Of a stretch of DNA of 35,869 nt, positions 1,977-21,547 are shown piece by piece. The DNA comes from Propionibacteriaceae bacterium (GTDB lineage Bacteria; Actinomycetota; Actinomycetes; Propionibacteriales; Propionibacteriaceae), in NCBI GenBank assembly GCA_031267295.1, contig JAIRZI010000045.1, positions 1-35,869 of the forward strand. Direction: 5' to 3'. Every line of letters begins with the position of its first letter. Position 1 is the stretch's first letter. Made by a program: the position numbers and the translations under genes. Under the pieces are notes generated by a model. That model saw only the letters and a program-made list of their open reading frames with translations, searched no databases and was not told the origin of the DNA.

Positions 1977-4805
1977 GTGATGATTGATCCGCGTCGGGTG
2001 GCAATCTTGATTCGTTCTCAAATTGGAGATATCTATCAAGACCGGACGAGCGATGTGTATCAATGGGAACGAACCTCGGTGGGTGCGAACATTGTTTTTA
2101 AGCAGTTGACAGAGACAAAGAGCTACTCCTACAGAGAAGATTCGGGGAAGCTGCTCGTTCTTGAACGTCCGTATCGGGAACTGCTTGAAGGTCGTCTGGT
2201 CGAAGTGCGAGGCAGTTTGTGGCTCAACGTGAGTGAGGTGTTGCGCTTTGGCTGTGCTACTGGTTCCTGGACGCGTGTCTTTTACAGCACAAAGGGTGGT
2301 GAAAGCTACAAAACCTACCTTTCGAGTGAAGTTCGTATTCTCACAGATATTGCCAAGCAGTCGCGAGCTACAAAAATTTTGAACTATTGGCATGATCTTG
2401 TGAATCATCTTCCGAACCTAAAAAGCGGGCCTAATCCGCTTGTTCATGCATATGAAAGTATGGAAATCATTCACCCTGATAGCGTTCTAGCACACTACCT
2501 TTCTGGCAAACGGATAAGTGAGAAACAAGACGGAAAGCTTCCCCTCTTTCCATTTTCCTCAAACTTAAGCCAACGCGACGCATTGTTGCAGGCATTGAAG
2601 TATCCAATTTCGGTCATTGATGGGCCACCTGGCACGGGTAAGACACAGACCATTCTCAACCTGCTGGCTACTCTAAGCGCGATGCCGGGGGTTTGCATAG
2701 GCGTTGTTTCGGCCACCAACACGGCAGTCGATAACGTCCGCGACAAGCTTGACGAACTGGGGTTTGGGTATGTGATTGCGAATCTGGGAAATAAAGACAG
2801 GAAAGAGGCTTTCTTCGCGGCGCAAGAAGATCGCAATACCGTAGTTGATAACTTTCTTGCTTCGAGTAGTTCTGGCACTAGGAACACTAGTGCGGAATCC
2901 GTTGTGAAAGGACAGTTGCGTGTACTTGAGGGCAAGCTTCTCAAGTTGCAAGAAAATGAGCGAACTCTTGCCAGATTACGACAGAGTTTGGACAGCTACC
3001 GGCTGGAGTATCGCCATTTCACCCGGTATTTGAATGGATATGAGGTGGCCAATCTTGATGGAGTGGTGCTGTTAGACCGGGCATCAGATCGAATTCTTGA
3101 TTATCTAGTTGAAACTCAGCTACCTGAAAGCCATCTGGTGTGGCCACTTCGCTGGATAAAACGATTACGCCAACAGGTTAAGTACGGTTCGCTTAAAGAT
3201 GTTGACCCTACAGACTCCGATGTTGTTCTTAGGCTTCAGCGAGCCTACTACGAGAAAAAGATCAGTGAGTTCGAAGAACAGGTCATCACCCTAGAAGACG
3301 AGTTGTTTCATGGTGATCTGAAAAAAATGGTTGCACAGCAGCAGAAACTTTCATTGCAAGTACTCCGTACTGGTCTGCGAGAGCGTTACAGTGCCCTGGA
3401 GCGGAAACAGTATGATGAAGCTAAATACTTGGATAAGCTTGATGCATTCAGTGTTGATTATCCAATCATTTTGAGCACCTGTCACTCATTGCGTCAGAGT
3501 GTCGGCCAAGAGCGCTTGCTCGACTATTTGATCATTGATGAAGCATCTCAAGTAGATCTACTTGCAGCAGGTTTGGCGTTGGCTTCCACTAAACGTGTAA
3601 TCGTCGTCGGCGATCTTGCTCAACTCCCTCATATTCCAGTGACCGAGGCAGTCGATAGTGTCGGTATATCCTCGCCATTACCTGCTTACGATTACGTTAA
3701 ACACAGCCTGCTCTCGTCACTGCAAGAACTATATGGCGACAAGCTTCCGCGAACGATGCTGTGCGAGCATTACCGATGTGATCCCGCCATCATTGGGTTT
3801 TGTAATGAGAAGTTTTATGGTCAGAAGCTCATCCCCTTCACGACTAGCACCCCTGAGCATCACCCATTGATTCTGCACACTACAACGGAGGGCAACCATA
3901 TGCGCTCGCACCGCGAGGGTGGATTGTCTAACCAGCGTGAGGTTGATGTGATTGAGCAAGAGGTGATTCCGAGATACTGCACTGGTATCTCGCGAGATGA
4001 GATCGGAATAGTCTCCCCGTACCGGAAGCAGGTCGGCAAGATTAACGATATCCTTGTCGGCGAATTTGAAGAGATTGAAGCCGATACGGTGCATCGATTC
4101 CAGGGTCGCGAGAAACAGGCCATTATCATGAGTACAGTGCTTGACGAGACTTGGCGGGGGCGACTGGGAACCTCGTTTATAGATGATCCGCATCTAGTCA
4201 ATGTGGCAGTTTCCCGCGCTAAAGACAAATTTGTGCTAGTGACAGACCACGACATGCTGCCAACAAGCAAGAATCTTCGTGACCTCATGGGCTATATCCA
4301 ATATTATGACCCGGAACATCAACCGTATCAAAGCTCAATAGTTTCAGTTTTTGATCTTTTGTATAGGAACTATTCGGCGCGTCTTGAATCATTATTTAAC
4401 CGTGTGCTGAACCGGACGAAGTATCGCTCCGAAAACATAATCTGGACTGTGATACAGGATATTCTGGCAGAAGAGCCATACCATGATCTGAACGTTCACG
4501 CCCAGGTACTTGTGCAAAATTTACTTTTGGGATTAGAAGGGCTCACGGAAGAGGAAACTACCTATGTCAAGAATCGATGTTCGCTTGATTTTGTGGTGTA
4601 CCGACGCGTAACACGTCAACCAGTTCTAGCGATCGAAGTGAACGGGTTCGCTTTTCACGAGAATAATCCTAAGCAACACACTAAAGATACGCTTAAAAAG
4701 GCCATCCTCGATAAAAATGGTATCCCGCTGTTAGCGCTACCCACGACCGGCAGCGGTGAACAAGCTCTTATCCGTGCCGCCCTAAACGTAGCAATGAACA
4801 GATAA
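1977..4805 (+). CDS. Superfamily 1 (UPF1-like) DNA/RNA helicase with C-terminal DUF2726/Vsr-like nuclease-fold domain
   Basis: Walker A 'GPPGTGKTQTILNLLATL', Walker B 'LIIDEASQVD', 'VVGDLAQLPHIP', 'VHRFQGREKQAIIMS', 'VNVAVSRAKDKFVLV'; C-terminus 'RCSLDFVVYRRVTRQPVLAIEVNGFAFHENN...KKAILDKNGIPLLALPT' fits DUF2726. AGGAGA Shine-Dalgarno just upstream; start is GTG 1977 or ATG 1980. Confidence 0.8.
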   Translation: MMIDPRRVAILIRSQIGDIYQDRTSDVYQWERTSVGANIVFKQLTETKSYSYREDSGKLLVLERPYRELLEGRLVEVRGSLWLNVSEVLRFGCATGSWTRVFYSTKGGESYKTYLSSEVRILTDIAKQSRATKILNYWHDLVNHLPNLKSGPNPLVHAYESMEIIHPDSVLAHYLSGKRISEKQDGKLPLFPFSSNLSQRDALLQALKYPISVIDGPPGTGKTQTILNLLATLSAMPGVCIGVVSATNTAVDNVRDKLDELGFGYVIANLGNKDRKEAFFAAQEDRNTVVDNFLASSSSGTRNTSAESVVKGQLRVLEGKLLKLQENERTLARLRQSLDSYRLEYRHFTRYLNGYEVANLDGVVLLDRASDRILDYLVETQLPESHLVWPLRWIKRLRQQVKYGSLKDVDPTDSDVVLRLQRAYYEKKISEFEEQVITLEDELFHGDLKKMVAQQQKLSLQVLRTGLRERYSALERKQYDEAKYLDKLDAFSVDYPIILSTCHSLRQSVGQERLLDYLIIDEASQVDLLAAGLALASTKRVIVVGDLAQLPHIPVTEAVDSVGISSPLPAYDYVKHSLLSSLQELYGDKLPRTMLCEHYRCDPAIIGFCNEKFYGQKLIPFTTSTPEHHPLILHTTTEGNHMRSHREGGLSNQREVDVIEQEVIPRYCTGISRDEIGIVSPYRKQVGKINDILVGEFEEIEADTVHRFQGREKQAIIMSTVLDETWRGRLGTSFIDDPHLVNVAVSRAKDKFVLVTDHDMLPTSKNLRDLMGYIQYYDPEHQPYQSSIVSVFDLLYRNYSARLESLFNRVLNRTKYRSENIIWTVIQDILAEEPYHDLNVHAQVLVQNLLLGLEGLTEEETTYVKNRCSLDFVVYRRVTRQPVLAIEVNGFAFHENNPKQHTKDTLKKAILDKNGIPLLALPTTGSGEQALIRAALNVAMNR

Positions 4806-5063: not shown

Positions 5064-8000
5064 ATGTCTTTACGCGCGCCGACAGGTGGCGTGGCTGTGG
5101 ACTCCACAGTCACACGCCATCAGCATCCTACGCCGTCTTTGCCCGAACCGGGGCAGGTAGTTGAGGTACGCGGCTCGACATGGGCGGTCGCTGGAGTCAC
5201 AGCGCAGGGGTTGCCGGTGTCTCCGGCGGATGATTCGACGGTCGGTTTATCGCATGTGGTCGATCTGCAGTCGATGGACGAGGATCGTTTGGGTGAGATG
5301 CTGTCGGTGGTGTGGGAGTTGGAGGTTGGGAACTCGATTACTCCGGCACAGGGTCTGCCTGATCGAATCACCGACCAGGGGTTCGACGATCCGGTGACGT
5401 TGGCGGGGTTCATTGACGCGATGCGGTGGGGCGCGGTCACCTCGGCTGATCCGAACCGCTACCAGGCTCCATTCTGGTCAGGCGTGAATGTAAATGCGTA
5501 CCAATTGGAACCGCTGCACCGCGCATTGTCGTCACCTCGCGCGAATCTGCTGTTGGCTGATGACGTGGGTCTGGGGAAGACTATCGAGGCCGGGCTTGTT
5601 GTCCAGGAACTCTTACTGCGCCACCGGGCGCGGACGGTCGTGATTGTCTGTCCGCCGAGTTTGAGCATGAAGTGGGCCGACGAGATGCGGGACAAGTTTG
5701 GCTTGGGATTCGTTATCGTCAACTCCGAACTGATGTCGTCGATCCGCCGCAGCCACGGGTTGAATGCGAACCCGTTCACGTTGTTCCCGCGTGTGATCGT
5801 GTCAATGGCTTGGCTGCCTCAGAACCGCGCTCAACGCCTGCTGCGCCCGGTTTACGCTGAGGTCGACAATCCGAAATCGGGCCGCCGGTTCGCGTTTGAT
5901 ATCTTGATCGTTGATGAAGCCCACCATGTCGCACCATCATCCCCGTTGACCGTCGCACAGGGGCGGGGCTACGCCACAGACACGAACCGCACTGTCGAGG
6001 TGCGCCGTCTGGCCGAACGTTGCGAGCACCGCCTGTTCCTTTCGGCGACTCCGCACAACGGCCATCCAGAGTCGTTCATGGCACTGATGGAGATGATCGA
6101 TCCGCAGCGCTTCTCGCGCGGCGCATTGCTCGACAGTGTCGCGCTGAAGGATGTTATGGTGCGCAACCTCAAACGCGACTTGACCGATAAGGGGTTCAAA
6201 CGCCGCCAGGTCAAGTCGTTGGTGTTCACCCCGTCCGATCAAGAGCAAGTCATGTTCTCTGCCCTAGATGAAATCGTGCGCGCGTCGGCTAAACTGAACG
6301 ACGCTAAACCGGGTAGCGACATTGTGACGATGCTGTTGAAAAAGCGGTTTATGTCCAGCCCCTACGCCTTCGGCCAGACCTTGGCGCGCTACATGAACTC
6401 CCGCGACGGCTCCGGCCTGATCGATGACGATTACGACGACATTCTGGGCGAGGGCCAGTCCGACGAGGAAGAGGGCCTGTGGGAGCAGGATGAGTCGGAG
6501 TATCTGAAAATGTCGAAACGCTCCGGCTCCGACCCACTGCGATCCGCCACCCGCGAGCAGCTTGAACAGCTGCGAGATTGGGGATTGGGCTACGAGTCGA
6601 AAACTGATTCCCGAGCCGAGGCGCTGCTGGGCTTCCTTGACTCGGTGTGTCGCCCAGACGGCAAGATGTGGACGAATGAGCGGGTGGTCGTGTTCACCGA
6701 GTACGCCCACACCGTGGATTGGCTGGCGAGAATTCTGCGGCAACGCGACTACACGGACAGAATGGCTGTGATTCAGGGTTCGACACCGACGGGCAAGCAG
6801 CCCGGCGAGCGGGGGTATATTCGCGAGCAGTTCACCGAGAATCCGGTGGAGCAACCGGTCAGGGTATTGCTAGCGACTGACGCTGCCGGAGAGGGCATTG
6901 ACCTGCAAGACTACTGTCATCGGCTCGTCAACTTCGACATTCCGTTCAACCCATCCCGATTGGAGCAGCGCATCGGTCGAATCGACCGTTACGGCCAAAC
7001 TCAGGCTCCGCTAGTGTTTCACTTCCTGCCCGACCAAACGTCGTCAACCTATGCGGCGGACACGGCGTTCATGGGCGGTATCGCCCGGAAGATCGCCAAT
7101 GTCGAGCAAGACCTCGGCTCAACCAATGAGGTCATCGCCGACCAGATCCAGCGCCACTTCACCGGCGGCAAAGTCCCGACAAAACCAAAGGCTAGAGGCA
7201 ACAACTCTAACGATGTCATCAATCAGAACCTGGCGAGCGGCTTAGAGTTGAACGCCCGTTTGACTGAGTTGGAGCAGGGCTACGACGAGTCGCGTTCCCA
7301 GATTCACCTAGAGCCGGACAACCTTCGCCGTGTGGTCGACACCGCGTTGCGGATCAATAACCAGCTACCGCTGGTGCCCATCGCCGACCCATTCATCCCC
7401 TACGACCCTGACGGAGATGTGAAGCCCGCCGACACCCAGGTTTTCGAGGTGCCAAACCTGACCCTAGGTTGGCAGGTCGCACTGCGGGGTCTCGACATAG
7501 TTCTCAAACCAGGCGAGCGCCGACCTATTACATTCGATCCGGCAGCGATGGAGATCCGCGAACCCGACGGGGCGGGCGGAGTAACCGTCCGGCGGCGCAA
7601 CGATTTGGCCTACGTCCACCTTGGCCATCCGCTCGTCCAGAAAGCTCAACGTTTGCTGCGCCGCTCCTTGTGGAACGTTGGCTCGTCGCTGAACCGGGTG
7701 ACCGCAGTTGTCGTGGACGATTTGCCGGAGTCGTTCGTCGCCGCTGTCACGCGGATGGTGCTGGTCGGCAGGGGCGGTGTCCGGCTACATGAAGACGTGT
7801 TCCTTGCCGGAGTTCGTTTGCACGGCCGCCGAGTCATGGACGAAGACAAAGCCGAGGGTGCCCTCGATCAGGCTCTCGACACGGGCAACCTGGCTTTAGC
7901 CGACGAGCGCGTACGGCAGCAGATCGCCGCGATGTGGAACGCGCCGGATGCGCCGATCAAGGCTCGGCTCGAAAGCCGCATACAGACTCTCGCCGCACGC

Positions 8001-8345
8001 AAACACAAAGCGGTGCAGAGCCTGCTCGACAAGCGCCACGAGTCCGACGTGAAGCGCGCCCATGACATCTTCGCTGCGTTCCGCGAGAACCTGCGCCAGT
8101 CGCTGCGGCAACTCGAAGATGCACAAGCCGAGGAGGAAGCCCGGCTTTTCCTCGACCCAGACCAGCAGCGACAGCGACGGCGGGACATGGAGGCCATGAG
8201 TCGCCGCCTGGACGAGCTCGCCTCCGAGGAGGATCGAGAAATCACCGCGATCAACGAGCGCTACACCCAGCCTGAGCCGAACACCACAGCAGCGGCTTTG
8301 GTGTTTGCCCTGACCCGCGCCGACGCCGAAGGATGGATCGACTGA
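5064..8345 (+). CDS. drmD: DISARM DrmD, SNF2-family helicase
   Basis: 1093 aa; 'LLADDVGLGKTIEAGLVVQELL', 'LIVDEAHHVA', 'FLSATPHNG', 'LLATDAAGEGIDLQDYCHRLVNFDIPFNPSRLEQRIGRIDRYGQ'; first gene in class 1 DISARM order. Confidence 0.88.
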   Translation: MSLRAPTGGVAVDSTVTRHQHPTPSLPEPGQVVEVRGSTWAVAGVTAQGLPVSPADDSTVGLSHVVDLQSMDEDRLGEMLSVVWELEVGNSITPAQGLPDRITDQGFDDPVTLAGFIDAMRWGAVTSADPNRYQAPFWSGVNVNAYQLEPLHRALSSPRANLLLADDVGLGKTIEAGLVVQELLLRHRARTVVIVCPPSLSMKWADEMRDKFGLGFVIVNSELMSSIRRSHGLNANPFTLFPRVIVSMAWLPQNRAQRLLRPVYAEVDNPKSGRRFAFDILIVDEAHHVAPSSPLTVAQGRGYATDTNRTVEVRRLAERCEHRLFLSATPHNGHPESFMALMEMIDPQRFSRGALLDSVALKDVMVRNLKRDLTDKGFKRRQVKSLVFTPSDQEQVMFSALDEIVRASAKLNDAKPGSDIVTMLLKKRFMSSPYAFGQTLARYMNSRDGSGLIDDDYDDILGEGQSDEEEGLWEQDESEYLKMSKRSGSDPLRSATREQLEQLRDWGLGYESKTDSRAEALLGFLDSVCRPDGKMWTNERVVVFTEYAHTVDWLARILRQRDYTDRMAVIQGSTPTGKQPGERGYIREQFTENPVEQPVRVLLATDAAGEGIDLQDYCHRLVNFDIPFNPSRLEQRIGRIDRYGQTQAPLVFHFLPDQTSSTYAADTAFMGGIARKIANVEQDLGSTNEVIADQIQRHFTGGKVPTKPKARGNNSNDVINQNLASGLELNARLTELEQGYDESRSQIHLEPDNLRRVVDTALRINNQLPLVPIADPFIPYDPDGDVKPADTQVFEVPNLTLGWQVALRGLDIVLKPGERRPITFDPAAMEIREPDGAGGVTVRRRNDLAYVHLGHPLVQKAQRLLRRSLWNVGSSLNRVTAVVVDDLPESFVAAVTRMVLVGRGGVRLHEDVFLAGVRLHGRRVMDEDKAEGALDQALDTGNLALADERVRQQIAAMWNAPDAPIKARLESRIQTLAARKHKAVQSLLDKRHESDVKRAHDIFAAFRENLRQSLRQLEDAQAEEEARLFLDPDQQRQRRRDMEAMSRRLDELASEEDREITAINERYTQPEPNTTAAALVFALTRADAEGWID

Positions 8346-11300
8346 TGTTTCACCGCCCGCATCAACGCCGCGCCCTCAACGCCACCGAACAACACCGCGC
8401 TTGGCTCCAACTTGTCGACACCGATGGCCCGTTCCTCGCCGTGCCTGTCCTTAAACGGGTCTGGCCAGACGGCATACCCAATTTCGCCACCATCCATCCC
8501 GAGCGCTACGACCTGCTACATGACAAGTTCAAGACGTTCGGTGCGGCTTTCGATGCTGTCGATGCCGAACCCGAATCCGAAGAGCTTCAAGCCAGCTATC
8601 GACAGACCCGTGACCAGTGGGTCGAGACGGTGCTGCGGGCCGTGGTCGGTTGGGGCGATACGCTCGACTGGGGCGAAACGACGGGCATCCGGGCCACATC
8701 CCCGAACCGGGCTGTAACCATCCACTCCCAGGGCGTGCTGCGCGGCGCGGATGGTATCGGCGCGCTCGTCCATATCGTCGAACGCACCGTCAGCCTCCGC
8801 TCCACCCCCGCCGACCTATGGGCCACGACGCCCATCGACCGGATGGATGCCTTGCTGCGCGCCTCCGGCGTTCCCATCGGCATCGTTACCGACGGCCAAT
8901 GGTGGGGTCTAGTCTGCTCTCGCGAAAGCAGAATGACCGCATCCGGCATCGTCGACGCGCTGACCTGGATTTCCGAGCCGCGCACCCGTGATGCTTTCTT
9001 CACCTTGCTTGATCGGCAGTACATCATCGGAGGCGACCCTGACGAGCTTCTGCCGGAACTGTTCAAGGCATCTGAGACTGAGGCTGAGGAGACCACCGAA
9101 GCGCTGGGGGCGCAGGTTCGCAGCGCCGTTGAACTGCTCATCCAAGCGTTCGCCGAAGCCGCCGTCGAGGCCAAGCGTCGTGGCCAGGGCGACTCGCTGC
9201 CAGACGATCCGCACGCCACCTACGAGGCTGCGGTCACGGTGATGATGCGGGTCGTGTTCTTGCTGTTCGCGGAGGAGCGCGGTCTGCTGCCGTCCGGCGA
9301 CCTATTCGACCAGGGCTACGGCATCGCCCAAGAACTAGCCCGGCTCGAAACCCGCGAAGCCGCTGAGAGTGAGGAGATACTCGACTCCACCACCTTAACC
9401 TGGCACCGGTTGCTCGCCACCAGCCAAGCGCTCTACACCGGTGCGTCGTTCGAGAATCTGCGCATGCCCGCCTACGGTGGCTCCCTATTCGACCCGACCA
9501 GGTTCCCTTTCCTCAACGCCACCACCGAGCAAGGCAGCCTCGCCGTCGCCGTCTCTGACCGCGTCATGCTCCATGTCCTACGCTCTGTCCAGCTTGTCAA
9601 GGTCGGAGGCGAGTCCAGACACATCTCTTTTCGCGACATCGACGTGGAACAAATCGGCTACATCTACGAAGGTTTGCTTGGCTTCACTTGCCGCACCGTC
9701 GGTGAGGTTTACGTTGGCCTGCAAGGCACAGCAGGAGCTGAACCTGATATTCCGCTCGCCAGACTCGAAACACTGCGCGCCGAGAACCCAACCCCCGCCG
9801 CGTTCGCCGATGCCCTGCGCGCCTGGCTGGTCACCGACCAGCCATCAACCAAACCCAAGTCCGCGTCCGCCATTGCCCGCGCCTTGGACGCGCTGCCCGA
9901 CCCGATCATCGTCAGCGCCCTCACTCAGGCCGTCGGCGGCGACACCGACCTGCGCGCCCAGATTGAGCCATGGCTCGGGCTGATTCGCCCCGATTTGCGC
10001 AACCAACCCTTCATCGTCCTGCCTGGCGGGCTACTCGTCAAAGAAACCCCGTCGCGCAAGAACGCCGGAGCGCATTACACGCCCCGCTCTTTGGCCGAGG
10101 AAGTCGTCCTTCATGCGCTCCAGCCGCTTTGCTATTCGCCCGGCCCCTACCAAAGCGCTGACGAAAGCAGATGGGTGCTCAAGGGCTCCGTTGACATCCT
10201 GCGATTACGGATCGCCGACATCGCCTGCGGCTCCGGCGCATTCCTTGTCGCCGCCGCCCGCTACCTCGCCGACCGAATGGTCGAAGCCTGGACTATTGAA
10301 GACCCCTCGAATACCTACCACCGCGACCTCTACAGCCGAGCCATCCGCCAGGTCGTCGCCAAATGTCTCTACGGAGCCGACATCAATGGCATGGCCGTCG
10401 AGATGTGCAAACTATCGCTGTGGTTGGTTTCCCTCAACCCGAAATTGCCTTTCAGCTTCGTCGACGACAAAGTGTTGCACGGCAACTCCCTACTCGGCCT
10501 GACCGACCTTGACCAAATCCGCGAACTCCACATCTACCCGGCGGATGCCCGCAGCAACGGCGACCGGGATGCCCTGTTCTACACCAGCGCCGGGCGCATG
10601 ATGACCCAGCGGATCGACGTCAACGGTGTCATCTCCCGCGTCGCTGAACGTCGCCAACAACTCGCCAGCGAAGTCTCCGAAACCGACCCGGCGCGCACTG
10701 CGACCGCCAAGCGCCGCATCATGGCCGATAACGAACGCGACCTCGTCCAACTGACGACCCTCGCTGATGCCGTCGTGGCTGCCGGACTGCCCCTCGGCGC
10801 GCCCCGAGGCCGCGACAAGGAAACAACCCGCCCCGAGGTCGACCCAGACGGCAACGCCCGCTTCGTCGTCGAACACACCCCCGATGCGAAGCTCCAGACC
10901 AAATACAAGGCGTTGGCCGAGACCGCCAGCGTCGCCTTCCCCAAGAATGGCGACGGAGACCGTTCCGAAATTCTGCGCCTCATCGACACCGGCCTCACTC
11001 CCACCGTCGAAACGGACTATGACCACTGGCGATGCCTACATTGGGTTCTCGCAGTTCCCGACGTGATGGAACGTGGCGGCTTCAATGCCATCATCGGAAA
11101 CCCGCCGTTCTTGGGCGGACAGAAGCTGACCGGGGCTATGGGCACTGATGTGCGCGACTGGTTTGTCAACGTGCTGGCAGAGGGCCGCAGAGGAAGCGCC
11201 GACCTGGTGGCCTACTTCTTCTTGCGTGCCACCTCGCTCTTGCAAGCGAATGGGACTTTGGGGTTGATTGCCACGAATACTGTTGCGCAGGGCGATACTC

Positions 11301-12463
11301 GGGAAGTTGGTCTTGATGCGATGGTTGCGGAGGGGTTCACTATCACCCGCGCTATTCAGTCAAGGTCTTGGCCTGCTGCGAGTGCCAACCTTGAATATGC
11401 TGCCGTCTGGGGTACTCGCGCTGCTGTCGCCGACGCAGTGTCGAGAGTGGCCGACGACAGTCCGGTACGACGCATCAGCACCCTACTCGAACCAGCTGGA
11501 CGAGTCGAAGGTAATCCAGTCAGGTTGGCCGAGAACACAGGCATCGCCTTCCAAGGTTGCATCGTCCTTGGTATGGGATTCGTCATCGAGCCAGAGTTGG
11601 CACATGAGTGGATTGCCGCTGATGCACGCAACGCTGAGGTGTTGCTCCCCTACCTGAACGGTGAGGATTTGAACTCCCGCCCGGATGCCTCGGCATCCCG
11701 GTGGGTCATCGATTTCAACGACCGCAGCGAGGAGGAAGCTGCTAAGTACGAGTTGCCCTATGCGCGCACTTTGGAACTGGTCAAGCCAGAACGGCAACGG
11801 TTGAATGCGGAGGGGTCTTTCGTGCTGCGGAGACCACTACCGGAGCGCTGGTGGCAATACGGAGAGAAGAGACCGGCCATGCGGCAGGCTATCGCCGCTT
11901 TGTCGGAGGTGTTGGTCATCGCGCTTGTCAGCAAGACGGTCATGCCTGTTCGGGTTCCAACGGGACAGGTCTTCAGCCACGCCCTCGGGGTGTTCGCCTC
12001 GGATGACTACAGTGACCAGGCAGTCTTGTCATCAAGCCTGCATCAGGCTTGGGCAATCACTTACGGTTCGGGGATGCGCAACGACCCGCGTTACACGCCA
12101 TCAGATGTGTTCGAGACCTTCGCTCGCCCCGCCGCGACCGGGAGACTTGAGAGTGTCGGGCAGATTCTCGATAGCGAACGGCGGACAATCATGGTTCGCC
12201 GGAATCTGGGCTTGACCAGCCTCTACAACATGGTGAGTGATCCCGACATTACTTCAAGCGGCGACCATGACATCGCTCGACTGCGCGACATACACGTCGA
12301 ACTCGATGACGCAGTCTTGGATGCCTACGGTTGGTCAGACATTGACCTGCAGCGGGGTTTCCATGTCTTCAGACAGATGCGGCGATGGACTGTAAGCCCG
12401 GCCGCTCGAATCGAAATTCTGGGTCGTCTTTTGGAAGAGAACCACCACAGAGGTGATCGATGA
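8345..12463 (+). CDS. drmMI: DISARM DrmMI, N6-adenine DNA methyltransferase (current ON allele of an invertible gene)
   Basis: Motif I 'IADIACGSGAFLV', motif IV 'IIGNPPFLGG'; PglX-like C-terminus. The ORF track starts at 8333, but ATG 8345 overlaps the drmD stop (TGATG), implying translational coupling. Confidence 0.88.
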   Translation: MFHRPHQRRALNATEQHRAWLQLVDTDGPFLAVPVLKRVWPDGIPNFATIHPERYDLLHDKFKTFGAAFDAVDAEPESEELQASYRQTRDQWVETVLRAVVGWGDTLDWGETTGIRATSPNRAVTIHSQGVLRGADGIGALVHIVERTVSLRSTPADLWATTPIDRMDALLRASGVPIGIVTDGQWWGLVCSRESRMTASGIVDALTWISEPRTRDAFFTLLDRQYIIGGDPDELLPELFKASETEAEETTEALGAQVRSAVELLIQAFAEAAVEAKRRGQGDSLPDDPHATYEAAVTVMMRVVFLLFAEERGLLPSGDLFDQGYGIAQELARLETREAAESEEILDSTTLTWHRLLATSQALYTGASFENLRMPAYGGSLFDPTRFPFLNATTEQGSLAVAVSDRVMLHVLRSVQLVKVGGESRHISFRDIDVEQIGYIYEGLLGFTCRTVGEVYVGLQGTAGAEPDIPLARLETLRAENPTPAAFADALRAWLVTDQPSTKPKSASAIARALDALPDPIIVSALTQAVGGDTDLRAQIEPWLGLIRPDLRNQPFIVLPGGLLVKETPSRKNAGAHYTPRSLAEEVVLHALQPLCYSPGPYQSADESRWVLKGSVDILRLRIADIACGSGAFLVAAARYLADRMVEAWTIEDPSNTYHRDLYSRAIRQVVAKCLYGADINGMAVEMCKLSLWLVSLNPKLPFSFVDDKVLHGNSLLGLTDLDQIRELHIYPADARSNGDRDALFYTSAGRMMTQRIDVNGVISRVAERRQQLASEVSETDPARTATAKRRIMADNERDLVQLTTLADAVVAAGLPLGAPRGRDKETTRPEVDPDGNARFVVEHTPDAKLQTKYKALAETASVAFPKNGDGDRSEILRLIDTGLTPTVETDYDHWRCLHWVLAVPDVMERGGFNAIIGNPPFLGGQKLTGAMGTDVRDWFVNVLAEGRRGSADLVAYFFLRATSLLQANGTLGLIATNTVAQGDTREVGLDAMVAEGFTITRAIQSRSWPAASANLEYAAVWGTRAAVADAVSRVADDSPVRRISTLLEPAGRVEGNPVRLAENTGIAFQGCIVLGMGFVIEPELAHEWIAADARNAEVLLPYLNGEDLNSRPDASASRWVIDFNDRSEEEAAKYELPYARTLELVKPERQRLNAEGSFVLRRPLPERWWQYGEKRPAMRQAIAALSEVLVIALVSKTVMPVRVPTGQVFSHALGVFASDDYSDQAVLSSSLHQAWAITYGSGMRNDPRYTPSDVFETFARPAATGRLESVGQILDSERRTIMVRRNLGLTSLYNMVSDPDITSSGDHDIARLRDIHVELDDAVLDAYGWSDIDLQRGFHVFRQMRRWTVSPAARIEILGRLLEENHHRGDR
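11606..11716 (+). repeat. 111-bp perfect inverted repeat, proximal copy inside drmMI
   Basis: Reverse complement of 13220-13330 matches base for base by hand alignment. Encodes EWIAADARNAEVLLPYLNGEDLNSRPDASASRWVIDF. Confidence 0.97.
11675..11706 (+). promoter_or_regulatory. Candidate serine-recombinase crossover site, proximal
   Basis: TCCCGCCCGGATGCC-TC-GGCATCCCGGTGGGT: imperfect dyad (12 of 15 positions symmetric, inner 7 perfect) around non-palindromic dinucleotide TC at 11690-11691. Confidence 0.6.
11989..12070 (+). repeat. 82-bp perfect inverted repeat nested inside the invertible region, copy in drmMI
   Basis: Hand-aligned identical to the reverse complement of 12887-12968; encodes VFASDDYSDQAVLSSSLHQAWAITYGS. 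Confidence 0.95.
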
Positions 12464-12886
12464 GACACATCCCACGGCGGCCTACGAGTTTTGCTTTCCG
12501 TTAGCACGATGATGGTTCTCCTCAAGCAGACGGTCGAGTATCTCCAGCATGACTGCCTCGGAACAAGCCCAACGTCGCGCGCCTCGATATGAATAGAATC
12601 CGTAGTCAAGGCGGAGGTCGCCCCAACCATAGGAAGCGACGACAGCCTCGTCTAACTCTCTATGAATGGCACGAAGGTGCGCTACGTCTGCGTCGGCTGC
12701 GTCTAGCACATCCGGATCGTTGACCAAGTTGTAAAGCTTGGTGAGGCCGAGGGATCGCCGGAGCATGATCTCTTGCCTCGTACCGTCCAGGGTGGCTCCA
12801 ACAGTGCCCAAGCCGACCGTTGACCGTGGGCGAGGGAACGTCTCGAAGACATCGGATGGGGTGTAGCGCACCCTGGTCTCTAACGT

Positions 12887-12968
12887 CGAACCGTAAGTGA
12901 TTGCCCAAGCCTGATGCAGGCTTGATGACAAGACTGCCTGGTCACTGTAGTCATCCGAGGCGAACACC
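12887..12968 (-). repeat. 82-bp perfect inverted repeat, copy in silent cassette
   Basis: Reverse complement equals 11989-12070. Confidence 0.95.
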
Positions 12969-13219
12969 ACGCAGGCATCGCTGAGTACTTGCCCAGTGGG
13001 TACCCGCAGAGGCATGACAGTCTTGCTGACACGCGCGATGACCAACACCTCCGACAAGTCTGCAATCGCTCTGCGCATCGCTGGAGCCCACGCCGCAAAG
13101 AGCCACCAGTTTTCGCGGCGATAGTCGATAGAGACTTTGTCCCGCTGCGGCTTGACATAGTGCAATACTCGGTGGAACGGGAGTAGATACTTAGCCGCTT
13201 CCTCTCGACTCTTCGTGCC

Positions 13220-13330
13220 GAAATCGATGACCCACCGGGATGCCGAGGCATCCGGGCGGGAGTTCAAATCCTCACCGTTCAGGTAGGGGAGCAACACCTC
13301 AGCGTTGCGTGCATCAGCGGCAATCCACTC
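13220..13330 (-). repeat. 111-bp perfect inverted repeat, distal copy
   Basis: Reverse complement equals 11606-11716; carries the same dyad with central GA (top strand) at 13245-13246. Confidence 0.97.
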
Positions 13331-13372
13331 CTGCGCCGGCAAATGGCAGTTGTAGGGTCAGCATTGTTAAGC

Positions 13373-14695
13373 ATGAACCTAATGAAACAAGTCTGTCGGT
13401 GTGTCCTGTACGCTCGGCTCAGTGTCACCAAAGAAGAATCCGTCTCCATTGCCCGGCAGCTTCAATCCTGTCGCAGCTACGCTCAGGCGCGCGGCTGGGA
13501 AGTCGTTGGTGAGTTTGTTGACGACGGCGTGTCCGCGACAGCGAATCGTCCCGAGGAACGCAAGGGTTGGGCGGCGCTCTTGGCCACAGGCGGCTTTGAT
13601 GCCGTCGTGATTTGGAAAGTGGATCGACTCGCCCGGCGTGTTCTCGACTTCCTGCACGCCGACGAAGCCCTCCAGAGGCGCGGCGCTGGCCTAGTCGCAG
13701 TGGAAGACCCTATTGATATGACCAGCCCCCAGGGTCGGGCTTTCGCCGTCATGCTGGCCGTGTTTGGCGAGATGGAGGCCGAGGCGATGCGGGCGCGAGT
13801 GCGCGCAGCTCGTTCGGCGTTGCTCAAGGTTGGGCGCTGGCCGGGCGGTGGCATCCCGTTCGGTTATCTGTCGGTAGCGAACCCCGATGGGCCGGGACGG
13901 GTGCTCGCGAAGGATGCCGAGCGTATCCACTGGCTGGCTGAGGTGGCGGCGATGGCCTTGTGCGGCGAGGCTGTCAATGCCATCGCCCGATGGCTGACAA
14001 CCGAGGGCGCACCAGTCCCAGGAGAACGCAAAGTGAGTCAGAGCGATCCCATCTGGAACCGGCAGACAGTCTATGGTCTGTTGCGCAACCCCATCCTGGC
14101 TGGGATGCGACCCCACAATCCCGGTCGAGGCAGGCAGGGCGCACGAGTCGACCCGTTCTCTGTCGTCCGTGACGATGTTGGCGTGCCTGTCATCGATGAA
14201 TCGCTAGCAGTTATCACTTTAGATGAATTCACCCAGCTTCAGCAGCTGCTCGATTCCCGTGACCTGCCGCAGGCTCGGAAGCATGGCGAACGGGTGACGA
14301 CCAGTCCGTTCCTCTCCTGTGTGGCTCGCTGCGATGATTGTGACGTGTTTTTGTGCCGGGGTACTAATCAGGGTAGGCCTGTTTTGTCGTGTCCGCAGTG
14401 CCGTCAGACTATAGGTCGTACTGCTCTCGATCCGTACCTTGCTGAACGTCTACTTACCGAACGTGGTGGTGAGCCGCTTGGCGATTCTACTGTCCGAGAT
14501 TGCTGGAATGTTGTCAAGTACAACGAGTCCGCCAAGCGTGACATTCTTCTGACTCAGCTTGATTTCCTGTATATCCGCCGAGGTGTGGTGGGTCGCTACT
14601 TCGATGAGGAGCGCATCATCCTGGCTTGGCGCAGATCTGCCGATCCTGCGCATTCTGGCATCGGCGACGGAAACTGTCATACCTGGCTGGAATAA
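13373..14695 (+). CDS. Large serine recombinase, putative DrmMI invertase
   Basis: 'CVLYARLSVTKEESVSIARQLQSCRSYAQARGWEVVGEFVDDGVSAT...GFDAVVIWKVDRLARRVLDFLHADEALQRRGAGLVAVEDPIDMTSPQGRAFAVMLAVFGEMEAEAMRARV' is the serine resolvase catalytic domain; followed by a recombinase domain ('GRWPGGGIPFGY...') and zinc-ribbon-like cysteines ('CVARCDDCDVFLCRG...LSCPQC'). The ORF track starts at 13343. Confidence 0.88.
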   Translation: MNLMKQVCRCVLYARLSVTKEESVSIARQLQSCRSYAQARGWEVVGEFVDDGVSATANRPEERKGWAALLATGGFDAVVIWKVDRLARRVLDFLHADEALQRRGAGLVAVEDPIDMTSPQGRAFAVMLAVFGEMEAEAMRARVRAARSALLKVGRWPGGGIPFGYLSVANPDGPGRVLAKDAERIHWLAEVAAMALCGEAVNAIARWLTTEGAPVPGERKVSQSDPIWNRQTVYGLLRNPILAGMRPHNPGRGRQGARVDPFSVVRDDVGVPVIDESLAVITLDEFTQLQQLLDSRDLPQARKHGERVTTSPFLSCVARCDDCDVFLCRGTNQGRPVLSCPQCRQTIGRTALDPYLAERLLTERGGEPLGDSTVRDCWNVVKYNESAKRDILLTQLDFLYIRRGVVGRYFDEERIILAWRRSADPAHSGIGDGNCHTWLE

Positions 14696-14721: not shown

Positions 14722-15045
14722 GTGAACTTGCCAGACAGAGTCAGCGCCGAGGCGGGCGAGCGGGGTGCGGGTGTGTCTTCTGGGTCTGGAGGTGAAGCGG
14801 TGAGAAAGCGCGAGTACTACGAGTTGGAAGCGGCGCGGAACGGGTGGACGGGTCGGGAGTTGGAGCGGCAGGTCGACTCGATGTTGTTTGAGCGGGTGTT
14901 ATTGTCGCAGGACAGGAAATCGGTTATGGAGATGGCTCGGCGGGAGCGTCTACCTGAACGTCCAGCCGAGTTGAAGCGCGAGATCAAGGCGGTCGAAGAG
15001 CAACAGGCCGATGCCGAACAGGAAAGCGAGAGTGAAAATGACTGA
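14722..15045 (+). CDS. Small ORF resembling the N-terminal part of DUF1016 (YhcG-like), possible remnant
   Basis: 'YYELEAARNGWTGRELERQVDSMLFERVLLSQDRKSVMEMARR' resembles the DUF1016 N-terminal pattern (FY...A..NGWS.RELERQI.S.LYER..LS.DK); no PD-(D/E)XK domain follows. Overlaps the drmA start. Confidence 0.5.
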   Translation: MNLPDRVSAEAGERGAGVSSGSGGEAVRKREYYELEAARNGWTGRELERQVDSMLFERVLLSQDRKSVMEMARRERLPERPAELKREIKAVEEQQADAEQESESEND

Positions 15046-18000
15046 AACCGTAACACCACCAACCGCACCCGGCTATCAACTCGGCTATCCGTTGGATGGT
15101 ACCTCGTATGCGGTGCGGGAAAATTTCGTCGACATTCTCGGCAGGGAGCTTGTCGGGCCGATGAACGGTTCTGAGGAGGTCGTGCTACTGAGCCCGCGCC
15201 AGCTCTATTTAGCGGGATATCTGGCTCCGGTGAAGGTGGTAGAGACATCCGCCGAAACCGAAACCGAAACCGGACGAGATGATGACGGCAATCTGGTCGA
15301 GATGCTAGCCGATCCGGGAGCGCGGGCTGCGGGTCGTGGCGTACCGGTCGCCATAGTCGATTCCTCAGACGCTGATGATGAAGACGATGATGCCGAAGAT
15401 CGCGCACCAAAGTCTGGGTTGATGGCGGCATCGTCGATGGGGTTGCGGTTCCAAATTGGTATGGACGTGGAGTCTTTTCAGGTGACGGCATCATGGGGGT
15501 TGTACGAATCGGTGGCGACGGACAAGATATCGAAGTCGGGCCATCCGATTCGTCATTACAAGCGCACACCCATTGAAGAGCCACGCACCATCAAAGTTGC
15601 CGACTTACAGCTGGGTGTGACAAAGACGGTGCCGTTGCGTGATGCGGCGGTGTTGCGCATTGACCGGTACGACGACGCGGAACACGGTCGGCGGCTGATC
15701 GAAATCGCTTTGTGTAACGACCGGGAGACGCCGTTGCCAATCCCGTTGGGAATGTGGATGTGGCAAACGGGTATGCGGGTAGACGCTTGGGGCGCTGAGG
15801 TGTTCCTGCCGGTGCGCGACATGCTGGAGCAAGACTGGCAGGAACACGACGAAGAGGTCAGGCGACTGAATCTTCAGTACCGCGACAGGCTGGAGTTCGC
15901 GGTCGGACGGACGTGTTCGGTGGACTGGGTAGTCAAGGCTGGTTCGCGGCGAGCAACAGAGGTGTCTACGACGTGGGTGCCGACGGCGGAGACGCCGCAG
16001 ACTTTGGCCGGGTCGGTTGAGGGAGCACTGCTGAGCATGGATGCTTTGTCGGCAGCGGATGCGCAGGCTGTCAAGGCTGGATTAGCCCCATTGGTGGACG
16101 GCTACGGAGCGTGGCTTGATGTTCAGGAGTCCGCCGCAAAGAACCTGCCGCCATGGCTGGCCGAGACCGCCGATCTGGCGTTGTGGGAGGCGCGGCGCGC
16201 ACACCAGCGACTGGTGGACGGTTTGGAGTTCTTGGGGTCAGATGTGGAGGCGCTGCGGTGTTTCCAGTTTATGAACCGGGTCATGCGCGACCAGCGGGTC
16301 GCGTCGCAGGTAGCTGGGGAACGGGCGGGCAACCCGTCGGTATCGATCCAGCAGGCTCGTGACCAGGTGCTAACCGACAGTTCTGGGAATCAGGTGGCAG
16401 CTTGGCGTCCATTCCAGTTAGCGTTCATCCTGATGCAGCTTCGGGCGTTGACCGACCCGGCGGCGACTTTACGGAGCGCCGAGCACCAGGCGCAGGTCGA
16501 GTTGCTGTTCTTCCCGACCGGTGGCGGTAAGACCGAGGCGTATCTGGGGTTGGCTGCGTACACGTTCGCCATCCGCCGTCGCCAGGGCGTGATCAAGTTG
16601 GCAGACGATTCATTGGATGGGTTGGATGGCGTGTCGGTGTTGATGCGGTACACGTTGCGGTTGTTGACGGCGCAGCAGTTCCAGCGGGCGACGGCGTTGG
16701 TGTGCGCGGCAGAGTTGGCTCGCCGGGAGGATGAAGCGATGTGGGGTTCGACGCCGTTCCGAATCGGCTTATGGGTGGGCACAGATGTGTCCCCGAAGCA
16801 GTTCGAGGAGGCGAAGGAACAGCTCGATCGGGTCAATGACCATGGCGGCTATCGGCTACCGGTGTTACAGATCAAGCGCTGCCCGTGGTGTGGCACGCCG
16901 ATCACTCCGGCGCAAGTGAAGACCGACAAAACCATGCGGCGGGTCTATGTGTATTGCGGCGACGATCTGGCACGCTGCCCGTTCTCCAAAGGCGGCGGCA
17001 TCGTGGAAGGTCTGCCGGTGTTGACGGTGGACGAGGAGATATACCGACTGACCCCAGTGTTCGTGATTGCTACGGTCGATAAGTTCGCCCGACTGGCTCG
17101 GGAGGGTCATGCGGCATCGTTGTTCGGCTACGTGTCGAAGAAGTGTGGCAGACACGGCTACGTCCACCCGGACTACTTGGGTTGCACCATCACCACCCAG
17201 CACCAAGCCGAGGATGGCCATCCGAAGGCAACCATTACCCCAGTGAAGCGTCTGCGTCCGCCTGATTTGATTATCCAGGACGAGTTGCACCTGATCACGG
17301 GGGCTTTGGGCACATCGGTTGGTTTGTTCGAGGTCGCAGTCGAGACATTGTGTTCTTGGGAGGCTTCGGATGGCCAGCCGGTCAGGCCGCTGATCGTGGC
17401 ATCAACGGCGACAGTACGAAACGCCCGTGAACAGGTGCGCGGCTTGTATGGCCGGGCGGTGTCGATCTTCCCGCCACAGGTGTTGGACGTGGCCGACACG
17501 TATTTCTCCCGCGAGATGCCGGTAAACCGAGATCATCCGGGTCGCCGCTATGTCGGCATATCGGCTTATGGGGTGCGGCTGACGGCGGCTGAAATCCGGG
17601 TCGCCGAGACTCTGTTGGAGAGCGGGCAGTTGTTGTTCGACCAGGTGGGAGCGGTTGCGGATCCGTACATGACGTTGGTGGGCTATTTCAACGCAACCCG
17701 CGAGTTGGCCGGTATGCGTCGGTTCATTGACGACGACGTGTCCAGCCGAGTGAAACGTCCACGGCTTGGCTCTGGCTTCTCGCCCAGGCGAGGCGCATTC
17801 CCGAACGGCATTCTAGGAGTCGAGGAGTTGACCAGTCGGAATGACTCAGACCGGATCGCAAACGTGTTGAACCTGCTCGGCTTGGCGTTTGACCCGGACT
17901 ACGACACGACTACCGCCTATCAAGATCGGATGGCTCGCATTAAAGCTAAAGAGAAGGTGCCGCAGCGCAAAGAGAAAGACTCTCCGTTCGATGTGGTGCT

Positions 18001-18778
18001 GGCCACGTCGATGCTGCAAGTCGGTGTGGATGTGCCCCGGCTCGGCTTGATGCTGGTGGTTGGCCAGCCGAAGAACACCGCCGAGTACATCCAGGCATCC
18101 TCCCGCGTGGGCCGCGACACCGGCAGGGGTGTCGAGCGTGATAAGCCCGGCCTAGTGGTTACGCTAGCCAACTGGGCCAGACCGCGCGACCTGGTGCATT
18201 TTGAGCAGTTCCGCCACTACCACGACACGTTCTACGCCCAAGTTGAAGCGTTATCGGTCACACCGTACTCACCGACGTCGCTGGAACGCGGCATTGACGG
18301 GCTACTAGTATCGACCGTCAGGGTGCTGCAGGCTCCGCTTGACTACGGCCTATCACCGGAACGCAACGCCGGGCGGATTGCCGCGCAGCATGACGTGATC
18401 GCCAAGGCTGTGGAGCGGTTGAAGGCTCGAATCGCCACCGCAGCGCTAGACGACAAGGCCACCAGGCAGGCGTCCGACGCGCTGGCCAACCGACTCGACC
18501 GGTGGGCCGAGCGCGCCAGACACGCCGCCGCGATGAGCCAAGCGCTGGTGTATGAGCGGGTCGGCGGCACGGGGCAATTCCTGTCATTGATTGTATCGCC
18601 GGAGAATTTGCGGGCAGCCAGCGGGATGGGAGACCGAGCTCCGTTCGTCGTCGCCAACTCGATGCGCGAGGTGCAGCCTGAGATCAACGTACTCGTCTCA
18701 CCGCTACCCGACCGCATGTTCACCAGCACCCCCGGCGGCGTCGCCGGATGGACGTTGCCCGCCGAAGGAGATGACTGA
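15038..18778 (+). CDS. drmA: DISARM DrmA, large helicase
   Basis: 'LLFFPTGGGKTEAYLGLAAY', 'PPDLIIQDELHLITGALGT', 'IVASTATVRNA', 'ATSMLQVGVDVPRLGLMLVVGQPKNTAEYIQASSRVGRD'. The ORF track starts at 15011; ATG 15038 is likelier. Confidence 0.88.
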   Translation: MTETVTPPTAPGYQLGYPLDGTSYAVRENFVDILGRELVGPMNGSEEVVLLSPRQLYLAGYLAPVKVVETSAETETETGRDDDGNLVEMLADPGARAAGRGVPVAIVDSSDADDEDDDAEDRAPKSGLMAASSMGLRFQIGMDVESFQVTASWGLYESVATDKISKSGHPIRHYKRTPIEEPRTIKVADLQLGVTKTVPLRDAAVLRIDRYDDAEHGRRLIEIALCNDRETPLPIPLGMWMWQTGMRVDAWGAEVFLPVRDMLEQDWQEHDEEVRRLNLQYRDRLEFAVGRTCSVDWVVKAGSRRATEVSTTWVPTAETPQTLAGSVEGALLSMDALSAADAQAVKAGLAPLVDGYGAWLDVQESAAKNLPPWLAETADLALWEARRAHQRLVDGLEFLGSDVEALRCFQFMNRVMRDQRVASQVAGERAGNPSVSIQQARDQVLTDSSGNQVAAWRPFQLAFILMQLRALTDPAATLRSAEHQAQVELLFFPTGGGKTEAYLGLAAYTFAIRRRQGVIKLADDSLDGLDGVSVLMRYTLRLLTAQQFQRATALVCAAELARREDEAMWGSTPFRIGLWVGTDVSPKQFEEAKEQLDRVNDHGGYRLPVLQIKRCPWCGTPITPAQVKTDKTMRRVYVYCGDDLARCPFSKGGGIVEGLPVLTVDEEIYRLTPVFVIATVDKFARLAREGHAASLFGYVSKKCGRHGYVHPDYLGCTITTQHQAEDGHPKATITPVKRLRPPDLIIQDELHLITGALGTSVGLFEVAVETLCSWEASDGQPVRPLIVASTATVRNAREQVRGLYGRAVSIFPPQVLDVADTYFSREMPVNRDHPGRRYVGISAYGVRLTAAEIRVAETLLESGQLLFDQVGAVADPYMTLVGYFNATRELAGMRRFIDDDVSSRVKRPRLGSGFSPRRGAFPNGILGVEELTSRNDSDRIANVLNLLGLAFDPDYDTTTAYQDRMARIKAKEKVPQRKEKDSPFDVVLATSMLQVGVDVPRLGLMLVVGQPKNTAEYIQASSRVGRDTGRGVERDKPGLVVTLANWARPRDLVHFEQFRHYHDTFYAQVEALSVTPYSPTSLERGIDGLLVSTVRVLQAPLDYGLSPERNAGRIAAQHDVIAKAVERLKARIATAALDDKATRQASDALANRLDRWAERARHAAAMSQALVYERVGGTGQFLSLIVSPENLRAASGMGDRAPFVVANSMREVQPEINVLVSPLPDRMFTSTPGGVAGWTLPAEGDD

Positions 18779-18780
18779 CC

Positions 18781-20853
18781 ATGACTATGACCGAGACCAT
18801 GACCGAGACCATCGCTGCTTTCGAAGCGCCCGTCATGTTGGAAGATACCCAAACCCTCGACCCGCTGGCCGATGCCGAAGAAGCCAACGCCAAGAACCGT
18901 GCTAAGGTCGGCACCGCCCGTCCCTCGTCGCTGCTCTACACGTACGGGCCAGGGTCGATTATGGATTTGCCGAACTTCTCAGTCATGCCCGCCGGATTGG
19001 ACGACTGGGAGCCGATCTGGAGATGTCGCTCCCAGATTCCAGTCATCGCTGAACCGCGCCTGCTGGACGTGGTGCGCCTCCACCTAGGGCCGCAGGTGGA
19101 CTCACTGCGCCCCTATCCGTGGCAACCATCCCGTGGGTTCGGCACCCAGGAAGGCTCCGACCTGGGCATCCCAGCCAGAGTGTTCCCGCAATGGCTGCGC
19201 TGCACCGGCTGCGACTACCTCGGCCCGCTTCCCCGGTTCACATATGAGAACACCCACCCGTTCCGGCCTGACCGAGCTGAGTTCACTCACACCGGCTGCC
19301 CTGGTCGTAGCGGGCAAAGCTTCGGAAAGCGCAAAAGTTCCGCCGTCCCGACTCCGCATCTACTGACCTGCACCAACGGGCATCTGGACGAGTTTCCCTA
19401 CGCGCTGTGGGTTCACAACGGCCTGCCGTGCCCGAACACCGATCCGGGCGTGATCCCTGACTTGAAGATGCGCGACGCGAATCTGGGAAAGTCTGTCGGC
19501 TCCACTATTAGCTGCGGAGCCTGCGGCGCGAAGCGCGGCATGGCCGAAGCCCAAGGTGAGGTTGGCAAGCAGAAACTTCCCCAAACCTGCCGTGGGCGAC
19601 ATCCGCACTTGGGCGCGTTCGATCCAAGCTGCGACGCCAAGCCGACGCTGATCATGATGGGCGCGTCCAACCTGTGGTTTCCGTCCACCCAGTCGGTTAT
19701 CGTCATGCCGCGCACAGATGCGAACAAGACCGAAGCCATCGCTGACCATCTGCGAGCCGAACTGGGTCTGGACTCGCTCCGGCAGTTCGGCGACCAAATT
19801 GCCGTCATTCGTGCGCTCGCGGCTGCCCGAAGCATCGACCTGATCGGCGTGACCGATGCGGATATCCATGCGATTGTCGCTGATGCGCTCAAACCGGCAG
19901 ATTCCGTTGAGGAACGGATGGAGAAGCTCGCCCGCTGGGATCCGGTAGAACTTCTCGTCTCCGAATGGGACTACCTGCAACGCCCAACCCTGTTCGCTCA
20001 GCAGGAGAACTCGTCTGGGCTGATGGTCACCGAGATGCCGCTCGGCGACAGCTTGCGTCCCGGAATCACACGGGTTGTCGCGGTGAACAAGATGAAGAAG
20101 ATCAACGCCGTTCTCGGCTTCACCCGCCTTGACGAAATGGATCGGGCGGGCGACCTCGCTTCCCGGCTGGTCAAGCTCACCAGGGATCGCAAGCCCCGCT
20201 GGGTGCCCGCCACCGAGGACCGGGGCGAAGGCATCTTCCTGCAACTCGACCTCAACGCTGTGGAGGCTTGGGAGCGGCAGGTGCTCGGCTCAGCCTTATG
20301 GGAAGCCCACCGGGCGGCGCACTACCGCAACTTCAAGAACCGCTACTCTGAGACCGCCCAGTGGGTCAATCCCGACACCCGGCTGCCAAAGCCGCGCTAC
20401 TGGCTGCTCCACACTCTCGCGCACATCCTCATCCGCGAGATGGCGATGTTGTGTGGCTATGGGGCAGCGTCTTTGAGCGAGCGTATCTACGGCTGGAGCC
20501 AGTCTGCCAACCGTGCCGCCGCTGCCGGGCTACTGATCTGCACCACTGCGTCCGACTCAGAAGGGACTCTCGGCGGACTGGTCGCTCTGTCCGACCCGGT
20601 GCGGCTGCAAGGGATTGTTGAATCGGCGTTGCGCCGAGCCTGCCGCTGCTCATCTGACCCACTGTGCGCGACCCGAACCCCAGGTTCCAGCGAGGATTTC
20701 CTACACGGCGCGGCCTGCCATTGCTGCGCATTCGCGTCGGAGACCAGTTGCGAGCGCTCCAACCGGTTCCTTGATCGCCGCTTCCTGCTCGACCTGCCTC
20801 AACCAGTCGGCGAGCCAACCGTGCCCGGCTTCTTCGGGAGAATTTATGCCTGA
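18781..20853 (+). CDS. drmB: DISARM DrmB, DUF1998 protein
   Basis: 'RPSSLLYTYGPGSIMDLPNFSVMPAGLDDW' N-terminus; C-terminal DUF1998-like region with 'HTLAHILIREMAMLCGYGAASLSERIYG' and a cysteine cluster 'CRCSSDPLCATRTPGSSEDFLHGAACHCCAFASETSC'. Confidence 0.88.
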   Translation: MTMTETMTETIAAFEAPVMLEDTQTLDPLADAEEANAKNRAKVGTARPSSLLYTYGPGSIMDLPNFSVMPAGLDDWEPIWRCRSQIPVIAEPRLLDVVRLHLGPQVDSLRPYPWQPSRGFGTQEGSDLGIPARVFPQWLRCTGCDYLGPLPRFTYENTHPFRPDRAEFTHTGCPGRSGQSFGKRKSSAVPTPHLLTCTNGHLDEFPYALWVHNGLPCPNTDPGVIPDLKMRDANLGKSVGSTISCGACGAKRGMAEAQGEVGKQKLPQTCRGRHPHLGAFDPSCDAKPTLIMMGASNLWFPSTQSVIVMPRTDANKTEAIADHLRAELGLDSLRQFGDQIAVIRALAAARSIDLIGVTDADIHAIVADALKPADSVEERMEKLARWDPVELLVSEWDYLQRPTLFAQQENSSGLMVTEMPLGDSLRPGITRVVAVNKMKKINAVLGFTRLDEMDRAGDLASRLVKLTRDRKPRWVPATEDRGEGIFLQLDLNAVEAWERQVLGSALWEAHRAAHYRNFKNRYSETAQWVNPDTRLPKPRYWLLHTLAHILIREMAMLCGYGAASLSERIYGWSQSANRAAAAGLLICTTASDSEGTLGGLVALSDPVRLQGIVESALRRACRCSSDPLCATRTPGSSEDFLHGAACHCCAFASETSCERSNRFLDRRFLLDLPQPVGEPTVPGFFGRIYA

Positions 20854-21547
20854 CAATCCGTTCACCGCGCTCGGCGCGTACCTCACTTCGACCGAAGCCG
20901 AGGCTCTCGCCGTGCTCCTTGAGAACGGGCAGCACATCTCTCTTGCCGTCAACAGCGTCAACCAATCCCGGCGCGAGAAAGCCAAGAAGTTGCTGGCCGA
21001 CGCGGGTATCAGCCATACCGAACCCAGGTTTGCCGGGGCGGTATTACGCTCTGTCGTCGGAGCCAAGTCCGTTCTCCATGACCTAGTCCCAGTGTGGACG
21101 ATGCCCGGTAACGAGGCCGACACTGGACACTTGACCGGCGAGTTCTCCCGGCTCGTCCACAACGCTAGAATCTCAATCACCTGCGCCACCTACAACTTCG
21201 AGACCACCTCCCAGATGTGGGATGCCCTCAAACAAGCCGCCGAGCGGCTCGACATAGCCGTGACTGTCTATCTTGATGCCTCCGCCTCCGCTTCTGCCGC
21301 TGTCAAGACCCGGTTGGCTAAAGCGACGGTGTACCGGTCGTCCAACATCGCCGGGAAACTAATCCGTAGTCACGCCAAGTTCGTTATCATCGACCACACC
21401 CTCGTCCTACTCACCAGCGCCAACTTCTCCTGGTCGGCCGAGAACCGCAACATCGAGTTTGGTCTACTTGTCCATGATGCCACGCTCGCCACCAGTGTCG
21501 AATCCACGATGGTTTCCAAGCACGGCACCTTGTACGAAATTGTGTAG
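20846..21547 (+). CDS. drmC: DISARM DrmC, phospholipase D-like protein
   Basis: ATG 20846 overlaps the drmB stop; single HKD motif 'SHAKFVIIDHTLVLLTSANFSWSAENRNIEFG'. The ORF track 5' extension (20615) lies within drmB. Confidence 0.85.
   Translation: MPDNPFTALGAYLTSTEAEALAVLLENGQHISLAVNSVNQSRREKAKKLLADAGISHTEPRFAGAVLRSVVGAKSVLHDLVPVWTMPGNEADTGHLTGEFSRLVHNARISITCATYNFETTSQMWDALKQAAERLDIAVTVYLDASASASAAVKTRLAKATVYRSSNIAGKLIRSHAKFVIIDHTLVLLTSANFSWSAENRNIEFGLLVHDATLATSVESTMVSKHGTLYEIV

Follow-up and report, generated by a model that had tools for sequence, protein, structure and literature searches.

A probable specificity switch in a class 1 DISARM operon, with at least two candidate exchange sites in the methylase gene drmMI

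The window (the whole stretch of DNA analysed, 35,869 nucleotides) carries a class 1 DISARM operon in which an inverted spare 3' end of the methylase gene drmMI and the gene of a large serine recombinase lie between drmMI and drmA. The locus is probably an hsdS-like specificity shufflon with at least two exchange sites, and the dinucleotide TC at 11690-11691, which a sequence-only reading had put forward as the crossover core, is probably not one of them. Briefly, the recombinase would invert the DNA between matching sites of the main and the spare drmMI copy, the inversion would swap the 3' end of the expressed drmMI in frame, and the new 3' end should alter the target sequence methylated by DrmMI. 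Exchange at site 1 (the 5' part of the inverted repeat IR1, approximately 11594-11641) would replace nearly the whole recognition domain, and exchange at site 2 (in the inverted repeat IR2, 12020-12041) only its C-terminal part. The genes concerned are the following.

5064-8345, forward strand: drmD, SNF2-type helicase of class 1 DISARM (PADLOC DrmD, 1209 bits)
8333-12463, forward strand: drmMI, the expressed copy, an adenine methylase carrying an MmeI-type target recognition domain (PADLOC DrmMI, 1608 bits; Pfam MmeI_Mtase and MmeI_TRD)
12482-13342, reverse strand: spare drmMI 3' end, inverted, with target recognition domain and C-terminus (matches to the DrmMI profile and MmeI_TRD)
13343-14695, forward strand: large serine recombinase ORF (Resolvase and Recombinase domains)
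15011-18778, forward strand: drmA, DISARM helicase (PADLOC DrmA, 982 bits)
18781-20853, forward strand: drmB (PADLOC DrmB)
20615-21547, forward strand: drmC, PLD nuclease (PADLOC DrmC; the true start lies within the ORF)

All five DISARM genes have PADLOC matches, form a single operon and follow the class 1 order drmD-drmMI-drmA-drmB-drmC, to which the spare recognition domain cassette and the recombinase are additions; the Nocardioides JS614 DISARM locus has other genes in the interval between drmMI and drmA. DrmMI is an MmeI-like (type IIL) methylase, its methylase domain being followed by the MmeI-type recognition domain. The predicted model of its last 453 amino acids (mean pLDDT 86.9) was aligned to MmeI (5hr4) with a Z score of 24.9 across 394 residues in a fold comparison, and from about residue 143 onward the model also aligns to type I HsdS subunits, with Z below 8. 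The spare 3' copy is headless, the methylase domain being absent from it.

The recombinase (450 amino acids) exceeds the cut-offs of both PF00239 and PF07508, has an intact catalytic motif (YARLS) and is similar to solved serine integrases (e.g., TP901-1), with which it shares the Resolvase and Recombinase domains. Its start is likelier to be the ATG at 13373 than the ORF start at 13343. A small serine invertase of the Hin/Gin type (about 190 amino acids, with a resolvase domain and HTH only) was considered and ruled out by the length and the Recombinase domain. In contrast to the large serine integrases, the enzyme is encoded in a defence operon and lies beside inverted near-identical sites, not attP/attB, and its role in inversion is putative. 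No relative of it was found among the viral contigs or plasmids searched.

The repeats, dyads and candidate sites of the window are given below.

11606-11716, forward strand: IR1, first copy, 111 bp, perfect
13220-13330, reverse strand: IR1, second copy
11989-12070, forward strand: IR2, first copy, 82 bp, perfect, within the recognition domain
12887-12968, reverse strand: IR2, second copy
11900-11924 and 13033-13057: 25-bp perfect inverted repeat, within the silent-conservation island 11897-11932
11680-11701: dyad put forward as crossover core, TC at 11690-11691, not kept in relatives
11594-11659: candidate exchange site 1, the part of IR1 whose silent sites are conserved specifically in recombinase-bearing loci (mirror image at 13277-13342)
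11897-11932: island of recombinase-specific silent conservation, with its copy at about 13025-13060
12020-12041, forward strand: candidate exchange site 2, GCAGTCTTGT-CA-TCAAGCCTGC, based on conservation in relatives, the dyad and a swap boundary
12916-12937, reverse strand: candidate exchange site 2, inverted copy

IR1, IR2 and the 25-bp repeat all lie inside the two drmMI gene copies, and IR1 is far above chance expectation as a repeat. The sequence-only reading had described the IR1 pair correctly as 111-bp inverted repeats, and it had overlooked the 82-bp and the 25-bp ones. The core it proposed, CCCGGATGCC-TC-GGCATCCCGG, is indeed present and recurs inverted at the mirrored position (GA at 13245-13246), with 12 of 15 positions symmetric about TC and the inner 7 perfect; since both copies are in the same frame, a crossover anywhere in IR1 would, as it had also pointed out, leave the 37 codons unchanged. 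As a dyad, this core is only marginal: the window contains four instances of perfect 7-bp arms separated by 2 bp, and two centres reach a symmetry of at least 12 of 15, versus 0.7 expected from local shuffles.

The window was compared with ten further loci, giving a set of eleven recombinase-bearing loci. In these ten, the recombinase is 67-80% identical and is always found in a DISARM operon, adjoining drmMI and/or drmA, in hosts from the window's own family, Aeromicrobium, Nocardioides, Tsukamurella and a genus from another family of the class; this recombinase subfamily thus occupies the same DISARM slot in all 11 loci, which are all actinobacterial. More distant recombinases, at 39-53% identity (L023, L027, L028, L033 and L034), are not in DISARM operons beside drmMI or drmA, and neither a DrmMI match nor convincing inverted repeats were found with them. 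The same architecture is present in the single-contig genomes G003 and G448 and is therefore no artefact of MAG assembly. Contig ends of Nocardioides G141 that fall inside IR1 were considered as an inversion junction and rejected, since the two have exactly 63 bp in common and break off there, which is how an assembler is expected to behave at any repeat.

For the location of the exchange sites, we used an independent silent codon test, in which the fraction of identical codons between loci is computed only at positions with the same amino acid, for the eleven recombinase-bearing loci and for 26 control drmMI genes without the recombinase. The identity peaks at 11594-11641 (0.74 versus 0.34 in controls), is 0.59 versus 0.36 at 11642-11674 and falls to 0.30 versus 0.29 at the proposed TC core (11675-11707); it is 0.68 versus 0.30 at 11897-11932 and 0.52 versus 0.28 in IR2 (12011-12046). 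Because the controls diverge further from one another, on average, than the recombinase-bearing loci do, the fairer comparison is with the background stretches of the same genes (0.36-0.48 versus 0.34-0.44), against which the site contrast also holds. These fractions are little changed by dropping any single locus, and when the main and spare copies are analysed apart, both peak at 11594-11638. The comparison indicates that IR1 is under a recombinase-linked constraint at the DNA level, upstream of the TC core. Such a constraint might in principle reflect transcriptional control of the recombinase (a promoter or operator) or a structured mRNA instead of a recombination site, as the second IR1 copy lies directly upstream of the recombinase start in the window. 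We regard this as highly unlikely, considering that the main copy, distant from the recombinase, is equally conserved, and that in loci with a longer spare cassette the IR1 of the spare copy is about 400 bp away from the recombinase.

The same comparisons bear on the possibility that the shufflon operates as proposed here, with the recombinase cutting at TC. In favour of this, the dyad is found in both copies of the window and inside the identical repeat; the half-sites, however, are not kept in both copies and across the orthologous loci, with 7/7 inner matches in the window but 2-6/7 among the further copies examined from recombinase-bearing loci. The main and spare copies differ at the TC core in G642, G730 and G635. 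The perfect identity within a locus, 111 bp in the window, covers 73 bp in G642, where it stops just upstream of the TC core, and only 46 bp in G730 (TTGCCGCTGATCCCCGCAATGCTGAGGTCTTGTTCCCCTACCTGAA), where it likewise ends upstream. Together with the control-level silent conservation, these observations make cutting at TC very improbable, and the crossover point most likely lies elsewhere than TC at 11690-11691. Of the earlier interpretation, the inversion idea is well supported, since the two drmMI 3' copies carry inverted repeats next to a serine recombinase and segments change places between relatives, and the TC core is not.

Within IR2, the sequence GCAGTCTTGTCATCAAGCCTGC forms an 8/10 dyad around a non-palindromic CA, centred at 12030/12031. 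The motif is unchanged in G642 and retained at 21 of 22 positions in both copies of Aeromicrobium L002, a locus whose spare copy is without IR1 and whose remaining IR1 has no silent conservation. It is kept in one copy only in G730, G635 and G034, and is absent or degenerate in G003. No IR2-like pattern was found in the viral contigs searched. The codon rarity of the motif was considered as a sign of selection and discarded as uninformative, since the whole recognition domain region is codon-atypical. In site 1, the best dyad of the block is centred at 11617/11618 and is weak (mean 7.4/12). These two positions, the weak one and the clearer one at 12030/12031, are our best candidates for the crossover centres.

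Sites 1 and 2 show no convincing common motif, which is awkward for a single recombinase and counts against the proposed mechanism. Given that their candidate centres are unlike each other, one of the two may be exchanged by homologous recombination. The recombinase would then act at one site only (1 or 2), and exchange at the other repeat would be due to gene conversion or to homologous recombination of the RecA type. A precedent exists in the pneumococcal locus Spn556II, where PsrA is reported to be needed for the 15-bp IR1 but not for the repeats of 298 bp and 85 bp (PMC4948785). Moreover, in G448 (L024, 4256-7003) the main and spare copies are mosaics in which identical tracts alternate with approximately 60% identical ones, and similar tracts of identity are found in G635; both look like the result of homologous exchange or gene conversion. 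Both blocks are, however, silently conserved between loci, which gene conversion within a locus does not yield. We give this explanation serious weight, if somewhat less than an even chance.

Evidence that modules have changed places comes from the recognition domains themselves. The C-terminal module (codons 318-450 of the compared segment) of the window's main copy is 86% identical to that of the G642 spare copy, and the window's spare to the G642 main copy 78%, versus 58% within the window. In the tree, window-main groups with G642-spare (support 99/98) and window-spare with G642-main (100/97), and the main and spare labels are thoroughly intermixed overall. The affinity switches inside IR2, window-main resembling G642-main just 5' of the switch and G642-spare just 3' of it, and the boundary of the window/G642 swap therefore lies in IR2. 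The N-terminal halves of the recognition domain assort independently (window-main is closest to G448, 79%), and this different pattern needs a boundary between the halves plus one further upstream, as IR2 and IR1 offer. An expressed module and an inverted silent copy share in-frame inverted repeats, and the modules exchange places between loci, in comparisons between species only. No strain was found with both orientations, which counts against the shufflon reading. The swapped modules could have arisen by homologous exchange or gene conversion without the recombinase, and ongoing switching at the window's locus, as well as cutting by its recombinase, is what we infer from the pattern.

It could further be argued that there is no programmed switching. 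On this view the recombinase is an integrase or a passenger gene product, while the spare 3' end is a decaying duplication that takes part in occasional homologous recombination only. Consistent with this, G635 and G1233 carry insertions that interrupt or truncate the recombinase gene, and IR1 has been lost from the spare copy in G420 and G034. Nevertheless, the subfamily is confined to one slot in eleven loci, the spare copies remain open reading frames in the recombinase-bearing loci, and neither the recombinase-specific silent conservation nor the opposite placement of modules between loci fits such decay. We therefore consider this unlikely, and prefer a programmed shufflon.

Phase-variable BREX pglX loci combine a phage-defence adenine methylase, silent inverted copies and a recombinase. 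The window resembles them in these respects and differs in being a DISARM locus with a serine recombinase. A further likeness is with inverting type I R-M specificity genes (the pneumococcal Spn556II hsdS with PsrA, and Mycoplasma pulmonis HvsR), in which an expressed recognition gene is accompanied by inverted silent copies and several inverted repeats, recognition domains are swapped and the recombinase gene lies within the locus (PMC4948785). In those systems the swapped protein is a type I HsdS subunit and the recombinase is of the tyrosine type, whereas in the window it is the recognition domain of an MmeI-like DISARM methylase that would be swapped, and the recombinase is a large serine enzyme. 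In the open-access literature searched, we found no description of invertible DISARM specificity.

DISARM is thought to distinguish self from foreign DNA partly via methylation (PMC9142583), and with self-marking of this kind, switching the methylase target would alter the cell's own mark. If true, a changed mark might be of use against phages that already bear the former one, and it raises the question of how the cell escapes self-attack on its own DNA when the methylation pattern changes. The recombinase-specific silent conservation points to concrete, testable site positions in place of the TC core, which was plausible but is probably wrong.

A broader reading, which we put forward tentatively and hold to be less likely than not, is that a DISARM-specific recombinase subfamily recombines several different short drmMI sites, sites 1 and 2 at the least. 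The island 11897-11932 and the 5' edge common to the long spare cassettes, at about 11228, may be among them, and the outcome would be combinatorial methylase specificities in a defence system of broad phage range. When the window is scanned with a matrix built from site 1, the spare copy's version of the 11897-11932 island comes 7th, which is suggestive only. Five relatives (L021, L024, L032, L003 and L029) have a longer spare cassette that in each begins at one and the same drmMI codon, at about amino acid 966 (11228-11260), and this common start suggests another shared boundary.

Some loci show signs of a locked switch: in L031 (12095-19044) an insertion of about 5.7 kb splits the recombinase gene, in L004 (1-434) an insertion truncates it at its 5' end, and the spare copy is without IR1 in L002 (7426-8019) and L042 (479-1012). 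In the window itself, a Superfamily 1 helicase gene with DUF2726 (1977-4805), resembling Mko defence proteins, lies directly upstream of drmD, and a small ORF of 107 amino acids without an NCBIfam family match (14722-15045) is placed between the recombinase and drmA. An IS1634-family transposase gene (22010-23236) adjoins the DISARM operon, and a predicted large surface protein with approximately eleven 87-bp repeats is encoded at 27433-30996.
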